This document shows positions 37,344 to 39,310 of a DNA stretch of 64,000 nt, piece by piece. The position numbers and the translations under genes were made by a program. Under the pieces are notes generated by a model. The model ran no database searches. It was given only the letters and a program-made list of their open reading frames with translations, and had not been told where the DNA came from. Numbering within the stretch: the first letter of the stretch is position 1; each line of letters begins with the position of its first letter. Source of the DNA: Capillimicrobium parvum (GTDB lineage: Bacteria; Actinomycetota; Thermoleophilia; Solirubrobacterales; Solirubrobacteraceae); the NCBI RefSeq assembly GCF_021172045.1, contig NZ_CP087164.1, positions 4,774,001-4,838,000 of the forward strand, written 5' to 3'.

Positions 37344-38024
37344 ATGCTCTCCCCGCTGGACTCCCTTCGGCTCCCGGTCCGCCTGGCCGACGAGCTGAGC
37401 CGCATCGCCGGGACCGTCGTCGAGCTGCCGCGGATCGCGCAGCTCATGCTCGACCTGCGGACCGAGATCCGCGGCATGCGCTCCGACCTCGCCGAGGTAC
37501 CCGGCCGGATCCGCAGCCTCGACGAGAGCATGTCCACCCTGCCCGGGCAGGTCGAGCGCCTGCGCGGCGACATCGGCGACCTGGGCGAGGAGATCACCGG
37601 CATGCGCGCCGACCTGTCGTCGATGCCGGGCGAGGTGAGCGGCATGCGCGCCGACCTGTCCTCCATGCCGGGCGAGGTGAGCGGCATGCGCGCCGACCTG
37701 TCCTCCATGCCCGGCGAGGTCAAGGGACTTCACGAGGACCTGGGGGTGCTGCCGGAGGAGCTGCGCGGCATGCGACGGGATCTCGCGGGCACGCCCGAGC
37801 GCATCCTGCTCATGCAGAACGAGCTCGACGGTCTGACGGACACGCTCGTCCGCGTCGCCCAGGTCCTCGAGGACACGCGCGACGGCATCAAACCGCTCGA
37901 CGAGGACATGGCCTCGGTCGAGCGCGCCGTCCAGGAGCTTCCGCCGAAGCTCGACGAGCTGCGCGCCCACCTCGATGGCATGCGGACCGATCTGAGCGGC
38001 CTGCCGTTCGTGTCGAAGTCCTAG
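37344..38024 (+). CDS. repeat-rich helical (coiled-coil/phasin-like) protein
   Basis: 226 aa, divergent from rpsL across an 80-bp spacer. No signal peptide or membrane segment. Almost the whole protein is amphipathic helix with a loose 14-residue period; three consecutive near-identical units read [14 protein letters not shown] (about residues 86-127), and weaker ones flank them ([39 protein letters not shown]). Pattern resembles apolipoprotein-, phasin- or tropomyosin-like surface-binding helices. Function unknown; a scaffold or granule-coating role is only a guess. Confidence 0.75.
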
Positions 38025-38037
38025 TGCAGCCGTCCGG

Positions 38038-38171
38038 AAGTTCTTCGAGGTACTCGGTGGATGATCGTGCGTGGCTGGGGGCGGTCGCCGGCCGCTCGCA
38101 TACTGGTGGTACGTGTGCGGTCGGCGACCGCCGTCAGACGCGTACGAGCGCCGCCGAGACCCGAAGAACTT
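38038..38171. repeat. 134-bp imperfect long inverted repeat (hairpin element)
   Basis: The 167-bp gap between the coiled-coil gene and ald folds on itself almost end to end. Outer arms AAGTTCTTCG (38038-38047) and CGAAGAACTT (38162-38171) are perfect; inner arms GGCGGTCGCCG and CGGCGACCGCC also match, with the loop near 38104-38110. About 80% of the two arms align by eye. Could be a MITE-like element, a bidirectional terminator or a structured RNA. Confidence 0.7.
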
Positions 38172-38191
38172 GCGGATGGGTGTCCTAGCTG

Positions 38192-39310
38192 CTAGGCGGG
38201 GAGCAGTGCGTCGGGATCGGCGGCCTCGACGCCGACCGCGTCGGCGACGGGGGCGTAGGTGACCTGTCCGGCGTAGACGTTGAGACCGGCGAGGAAGCCG
38301 GGGTCGTCGTGCAGCGCGGCCAGGCCGTGGTCGGCGAGACGGACCAGGTAGGGCATCGTGGCGTTCGTCAGCGCGTAGGTGCTGGTGATCGGCACCGCGC
38401 CGGGCATGTTGGCCACGCAATAGTGGGTGATCCCGTCGACCTCATAGGTCGGCTCGGAATGCGTCGTCGGCCGCGACGTCTCAAAACAGCCGCCCTGATC
38501 GATCGACACATCGACCAACACCGCGTTGCGCTTCATCAACCGCAACTGATCGCGAGTGATCACCCGCGGCGCCCGGGCCCCATGGATCAGCACCGCCCCG
38601 ATCACCAGATCGACCTCGGGCAGACGCTCCTCGATCTCCAACGTCGACGCAAAACACGTCGAACACCGCCCATTCAAGAGCACCTCAAGCTCCCGCAACC
38701 GATCGATCGACCGGTCATACACATAGGTCTCCGCGCCCATCCCGATCGCGATCTCCGCCGCGTTCTGACCCACCACCCCACCACCGATGACCATCACCTT
38801 CCCGGCCGCCACCCCCGGCACCCCACCCAACAACAACCCCCGCCCCCCCAACGGCTTCTCGAGCATGAACGCCCCCGCCTGCGTCGCGATCTTGCCCGCC
38901 ACCTCACTCATCGGCGCCAACAACGGCAACCGCCCCCGCCCATCCTCCACCGTCTCATAGGCAATACACGTCGCCCCCGACCCCATCAACCCCCGCGTCA
39001 ACCCCGCATCCGCCGCCAGATGCAAATACGTAAACACCGTCTGATCAGCCCGCAACATCGCCACCTCACCCGCCGACGGCTCCTTGACCTTCACAATCAG
39101 ATCCGCCTGCGCAAACACCCCCGCCGCATCCCCCACCATCCGCGCACCCTGCTCCACAAACGCACCATCCGCGATCGCCGACCCCACCCCCGCCCCCGCC
39201 TGCACCACCACCTCATGACCGTGATCGGTCAGCTCTCGCACACCCGACGGCGTGAGCGCCACCCGGTATTCGTCGGTCTTGACCTCCGACGGGACGCCGA
39301 CCCTGGTCAT
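38192..39310 (-). CDS. ald: alanine dehydrogenase
   Basis: 372 aa from the ATG at 39310 (MTRVGVPSEVKTDEYRVALT). Conserved Lys in VKVKEPSAGE, His in FTYLHLAAD, NAD-binding motif VIGGGVVGQNAAEIAIGMGA, and C-terminal NMPGAVPITSTYAL. Catalyses reversible deamination of L-alanine to pyruvate. ATG overlaps the pucR stop by 4 bp, so it is in one operon with the regulator and a pyruvate-type aminotransferase. Codons change sharply in the middle (about 38460-39225): TTG, GGG, GAT, TTT and TAT replace the CTC/GGC/GAC/TTC/TAC used at both ends and in neighbours, suggesting a mosaic gene. Confidence 0.96.
   Translation of the reverse strand: MTRVGVPSEVKTDEYRVALTPSGVRELTDHGHEVVVQAGAGVGSAIADGAFVEQGARMVGDAAGVFAQADLIVKVKEPSAGEVAMLRADQTVFTYLHLAADAGLTRGLMGSGATCIAYETVEDGRGRLPLLAPMSEVAGKIATQAGAFMLEKPLGGRGLLLGGVPGVAAGKVMVIGGGVVGQNAAEIAIGMGAETYVYDRSIDRLRELEVLLNGRCSTCFASTLEIEERLPEVDLVIGAVLIHGARAPRVITRDQLRLMKRNAVLVDVSIDQGGCFETSRPTTHSEPTYEVDGITHYCVANMPGAVPITSTYALTNATMPYLVRLADHGLAALHDDPGFLAGLNVYAGQVTYAPVADAVGVEAADPDALLPA

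Follow-up and report, generated by a model that had tools for sequence, protein, structure and literature searches.

The common view of MITEs is that they arise passively from insertion sequences (ISs) by internal deletion, and that only their two ends are functional. IS630 transposases act on double-stranded DNA. In the case of the REPIN/REP sequences, which are moved by RAYT (TnpA-REP), the single-strand hairpin is thought to be important for spreading. RUP of Streptococcus pneumoniae (107 bp) has been proposed to be moved by IS630-Spn1 (PMC2229807). The insertion of members of the IS630 family is accompanied by duplication of TA, and a preference for CTAG is cited in the references of the same source (PMC2170065).

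The element described here lies within a 64-kb window (the whole stretch of 64,000 nt that was analysed) belonging to the single 5.95-Mb contig of the complete genome of Capillimicrobium parvum (G000), where it occupies the space separating two convergent genes, a 226-aa open reading frame (ORF) on the plus strand and ald on the minus strand (Table 1). A preliminary description of this DNA had reported a long inverted repeat at positions 38038-38171. The palindrome is real and consists of the terminal and inner arms listed in Table 1, but these limits were too short: the pairing reaches past them, out to the CTAG at 38021 and the CTAG at 38188, and the complete palindrome folds almost from end to end. 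Folding of 38028-38181 yielded -120.7 kcal/mol, compared with -69.2 +/- 4.3 kcal/mol for shuffled sequences (z -12.1; 0 of 200 shuffles were as stable), and, at the settings used, no inverted repeat of the window is longer than the 39-bp inner arms. For the whole element, the plus strand gave -129.6 kcal/mol versus -95.5 kcal/mol for the other strand.

Table 1. Features of the hairpin element and its neighbours in the 64-kb window.
Feature	Coordinates	Strand	Remarks
Complete hairpin MITE	38021-38188	+	168 bp, CTAG to CTAG; the plus strand is the better fold
Left terminal inverted repeat	38021-38047	+	CTAGTGCAGCCGTCCGGAAGTTCTTCG; holds the TA/CTAG target site; related to IS630 ends
Left inner stem arm	38065-38103	+	
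Central loop region	38104-38108	+	5 nt between the inner arms
Right inner stem arm	38109-38147	+	contains the recurring motif CGTCAG(A/G)CGCG
Right terminal inverted repeat	38162-38188	-	CTAGGACACCCATCCGCAAGTTCTTCG (minus-strand reading)
Upstream coiled-coil-like ORF	37344-38024	+	226 aa; context, outside the element; no Pfam stretch passes alone
ald, alanine dehydrogenase	38192-39310	-	convergent neighbour; context, outside the element

The right terminal inverted repeat reads CTAGTACACC... in most other copies, as against CTAGGACACCCATCCGCAAGTTCTTCG at the window copy, and the motif CTGGTGG of the central loop region (TACTGGTGGTAC in the window copy) recurs across many relatives. Scanning of the window copy revealed neither a sigma-70 promoter nor an intrinsic terminator, and it contains no T-tract. 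A search of the element against Rfam returned no family at the gathering score; the best match, to the plant microRNA hairpin mir-2830 (30.8 bits versus 70), was judged to be due to chance and this identity was rejected.

Six near-full copies, including that of the window, are present in the genome. The five others show 95-98% identity over 159-169 bp, and the flanks of the near-identical copies differ from site to site; the element is therefore a short (168 bp), non-coding sequence that occurs in multiple copies at unrelated sites. A diverged full-length relative was found at 5774988-5775154 and a weak relative at 2160156-2160322. Approximately six copies are deleted or truncated: three without the centre (119, 72 and 59 bp), a remnant of 26 bp and two pieces that retain one side. 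The deleted forms (e.g. those of 72, 59 and 26 bp) are built on the same end sequences as the full element, and the lack of the centre fits deletion at the palindrome. The copies in the Capillimicrobium parvum genome look to be decaying, some of them via loss of the palindrome centre. In the genome G054, two hairpins shortened to 62 bp by an internal deletion with an identical junction lie at different sites (L091:417-478 and L092:450-511); they represent either a mini-form that is still mobile or deletions that recurred between short direct repeats.

The TAG stop codon of the upstream ORF sits inside the left CTAG of the element, and the original C-terminus of this ORF may have been longer. 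The ORF also contains near-identical repeats of coiled-coil type. On the opposite side, the ald stop codon is located 4 bp beyond the element. A second ald with 98% DNA identity, which does not carry the element, is present in the same genome (G000:C1:898346-899465) together with approximately 46 bp from the 3' end of the gene that lies upstream of the element in the window. The homology between the two loci ends at the left edge of the element and restarts 3 bp beyond its right edge, and 44 unrelated bases occupy the place of the element in the second locus, which thus represents a near-empty, not an exact, site. Both copies of ald display odd C- and A-rich codon usage over much of their length, which makes it likely that the gene was recently duplicated or underwent gene conversion, possibly following a transfer.

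Most copies are bordered by CTAG on either side, and a left-end CTAG was found in 58 of 87. This arrangement, shared by the window copy, is compatible with TA insertion but ambiguous, because CTAG is palindromic and CTAG...CTAG is therefore uninformative on target duplication. In several relatives the bordering repeats are not palindromic: TTA...TTA was identified in three genomes (G010, G038 and G030) and CTA...CTA in two (G054 and G014), and these direct repeats are consistent with genuine target duplications two to three bases long. Both the TA target and the CTAG preference agree with those of the IS630 group.

The end sequence of the element was found in 23 of 232 genomes of the order; in these 23, the partner end, where visible, mostly faces the first end approximately 168 bp away. 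In three genomes, one of which (G002) belongs to the same genus, facing ends 1244-1251 bp apart enclose an IS630-family transposase, forming a complete element (example start: CTAGTGGACGTGTCCGCAAGTTCTGCGG). The partner transposase of G030 matched NF033545 with 101 bits (cut-off 100) as well as DDE_3, and the ends of this IS630 share 27 of 28 bases with a hairpin of G113. Further IS630 elements have different ends, which agree with those of other hairpin subfamilies at up to 21 of 28 positions. The terminal inverted repeats are thus shared with autonomous IS630 elements of related genomes. A MITE with terminal repeats was among the candidates named in the preliminary description, and it is borne out by the many copies, in this genome and elsewhere, by the IS630-type terminal repeats and by the non-palindromic target duplications of the relatives. 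In three partner IS630 elements (L084:676-1926, L058:1501-2744 and L063:1501-2750), the N-terminal HTH and DDE parts are encoded in two overlapping frames; the frame switch falls at the same place (approximately ...SGRPRRFPP) in all three of these diverged elements, a hint that programmed frameshifting may operate in them.

Within the genome of Capillimicrobium parvum itself, no match to an IS630 transposase exceeded the cut-off (positive controls were obtained in related genomes), and no longer element with hairpin-type ends was detected. Because no matching IS630 was found, the element appears to be orphaned in this genome, unless a very diverged transposase is present. The weak IS630 matches present there are N-terminal, and the one examined is an IS481-type transposase with the IS481 leucine zipper. 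The genome contains four very similar transposase genes (C1:629143-629463, 1565001-1565321, 987644-987964 and 3707863-3708183), one of which was examined and is of the IS481 type. Many hairpin-bearing genomes do not contain a close IS630, and in G113, where spread has been most recent, the only one is more distant.

A covariance model built from 16 elements, all found by sequence, matched in 55 of 399 genomes of the class, representing 33 of 128 genera; the matches were almost always end to end and 162-172 nt in length. Among 396 genomes drawn from the phylum, matches were obtained only in genomes of the same order, and no relative was found in the genomes sampled outside the class. The distribution therefore appears class-limited at the sensitivity of the model.

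In the sequence-based alignment of the 16 elements, 36 of the 57 predicted pairs show changes on both sides with the pairing kept. Paired cells amounted to 92.5%, compared with 77.5% in shuffles, and the covariation score was 0.452, compared with 0.182 in shuffles and 0.05-0.10 in slid controls. Covariation across homologs, proposed in the preliminary description as a check, thus supports the fold. The more stable fold is on the same strand in all 16 elements, because arm mismatches take the form of G-T there and seldom of A-C. When the two arms were aligned in a strand-blind manner, i.e. in ignorance of wobble pairs, 496 G-T versus 64 A-C were counted in 60 elements, and 721 versus 125 in 87 elements drawn from 45 genomes; the G-T excess ran in the same direction in every element (87/87) and every genome (45/45). 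A null in which the better orientation was chosen for each element gave 530 +/- 9 G-T, as against the 721 observed. The same strand was also the more stable one in 146 of 146 elements from 49 genomes. Relatedness inflates the element counts, so it is the per-genome figures that carry weight; elements found with the model were also selected for pairing, but the 16-element strand set and the G113 copies were found by sequence alone. In a double-stranded DNA palindrome or cruciform, G-T cannot be preferred over A-C, since the strands carry one each. From the asymmetry we infer that the constraint sees, and acts on, one strand in single-stranded form, as RNA or DNA.

The level at which this constraint operates was approached by comparing the nearest pairs of copies within genomes and scoring their differences at paired sites (neutral G-T share, 0.55). 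Copies less than 4% apart differed by 9 G-T and 9 A-C (p 0.76; only 18 changes), those 4-12% apart by 86 G-T and 26 A-C (p 1.7e-6), and those more than 12% apart, among which decayed copies are included, by 85 G-T and 42 A-C (p 0.004). Judging from these sequence differences, resident copies seem to decay freely and spreading lineages seem to keep the pairing. The orientation relative to the upstream gene, assigned by a simple ORF heuristic, is mixed (47 same, 39 opposite), with no clear bias; GC skew in twenty 20-kb samples revealed no clear origin or terminus. The apparently free decay of inserted copies, together with the mixed gene orientation, leads us to infer that the hairpin matters more for propagation than for the host.

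Taken jointly, these data indicate, with a probability of roughly 0.8, that the region is a MITE with IS630 ends, which would be mobilised in trans and whose plus-strand hairpin would be needed in spreading. According to the proposed mechanism, the element would be excised by a DDE transposase of the IS630 type supplied in trans and inserted at TA, preferably within CTAG, and the plus-strand hairpin, as RNA or single-stranded DNA, would be required while the element spreads, not while it resides in a host gene region. We know of no precedent for a single-strand requirement of IS630 transposases, nor, to our knowledge, has a hairpin-strand step been described in IS630/Tc1-mariner elements, whose movement is believed to involve double-stranded DNA only. 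The specific proposal that spread depends on one particular strand folding into the full-length hairpin of approximately 168 nt, within a transcript or single-stranded DNA, is tentative, and we rate its chances as well below even. If true, it would account for the conservation across the class, for a length that hardly varies and for the one-sided G-T excess, which is absent among fresh-copy differences.

Selection of the MITE hairpin within the host, through read-through transcripts whose long RNA stem would be a substrate of RNase III or would terminate or stabilise mRNAs, is in our view unlikely. Strand-specific pairing that includes G-U suits RNA, the window copy is situated between two convergent gene ends, and ERIC and Correia/NEMIS provide precedents; however, the upstream genes show no consistent orientation, pairing is not kept in copies less than 4% apart, and the window copy bears no promoter or terminator signature. 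Of the structured regulatory RNA considered in the preliminary description, there remains a structure that covaries and is strand-specific, whereas the regulatory role in the host is unsupported on account of the same young copies and gene orientations. Less probable again is an origin of the strand asymmetry in mutation or templated repair on one strand, acting without selection on an otherwise ordinary MITE. Palindromes are mutagenic, and preferential correction of one strand is possible, but copies occur in both chromosomal orientations with a bias that follows the element's own orientation, and young copies are free of it.

The very stable fold between convergent genes could also be taken for a non-mobile feature of the ald locus, either a structured non-coding RNA gene or a bidirectional terminator. 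The presence of the element at six or more unrelated loci in the genome, its IS630-type ends and the target duplications in relatives make this very improbable, as do the lack of an Rfam family at threshold and of a T-tract. To a chance palindrome or a recombination scar beside ald we attach hardly any credence: the second ald at 98% identity does indicate that the locus was rearranged, but the fold (z -12), the multiple copies and the class-wide covariation oppose such an origin. The scar affecting ald that had been suggested earlier is not supported, the same element having been found at unrelated loci, and the palindrome with no other copies and no conservation envisaged at the same time is the opposite of the multi-copy, class-wide element observed.

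The element is real, mobile, widespread and mostly explained, and the strand-specific constraint is the unusual residue. Across many genera, the entire interior is preserved as a hairpin that covaries, hardly varies in length and is confined to one strand. If the bias holds, the interior would have a function in spreading, and the single strand would become an intermediate or regulator of movement, open to testing, in a transposon superfamily that is very common.

The element is filed as a MITE of the IS630 group; ERIC, RUP and NEMIS were compared with it by their features, and membership of these named families is not claimed. ERIC/IRU of enterobacteria (127 bp) is likewise an imperfect, intergenic, multi-copy palindrome of which one strand is the better fold; this held for 66 of 68 copies in a crude test, the copies having been picked through an exact match to a central pattern and trimmed to a fixed length. 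Its bias is weak, however, with 199 G-T versus 150 A-C in the same strand-blind test on this crude sampling, compared with 721:125 for the hairpin MITE. The Correia/NEMIS elements of Neisseria (approximately 100-155 bp) are similarly bounded by terminal inverted repeats with TA at the termini; their transcripts form long stems that RNase III cleaves, and their host is different. A part for the single-strand hairpin in spreading would be common to REPIN/REP and the hairpin MITE, whereas the ends of the latter match a DDE-type IS630 element. The published description of RUP presents a small, non-coding element with IS630-matching ends, TA insertion and proposed trans-mobilisation, all of which are shared, and a stem-loop transcript of RUP (PMC2229807). 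RUP differs in host phylum and in length, the hairpin MITE being near-constant at approximately 168 nt across a bacterial class, and full-length pairing with strand-specific covariation is not reported for RUP in the account consulted (PMC2229807). The literature searched, largely without subscription papers, contained no similar MITE in the class and none with a strand-specific structure. What is new in comparison with the known MITEs of the IS630 group is a class-wide, strand-specific hairpin of near-fixed length.
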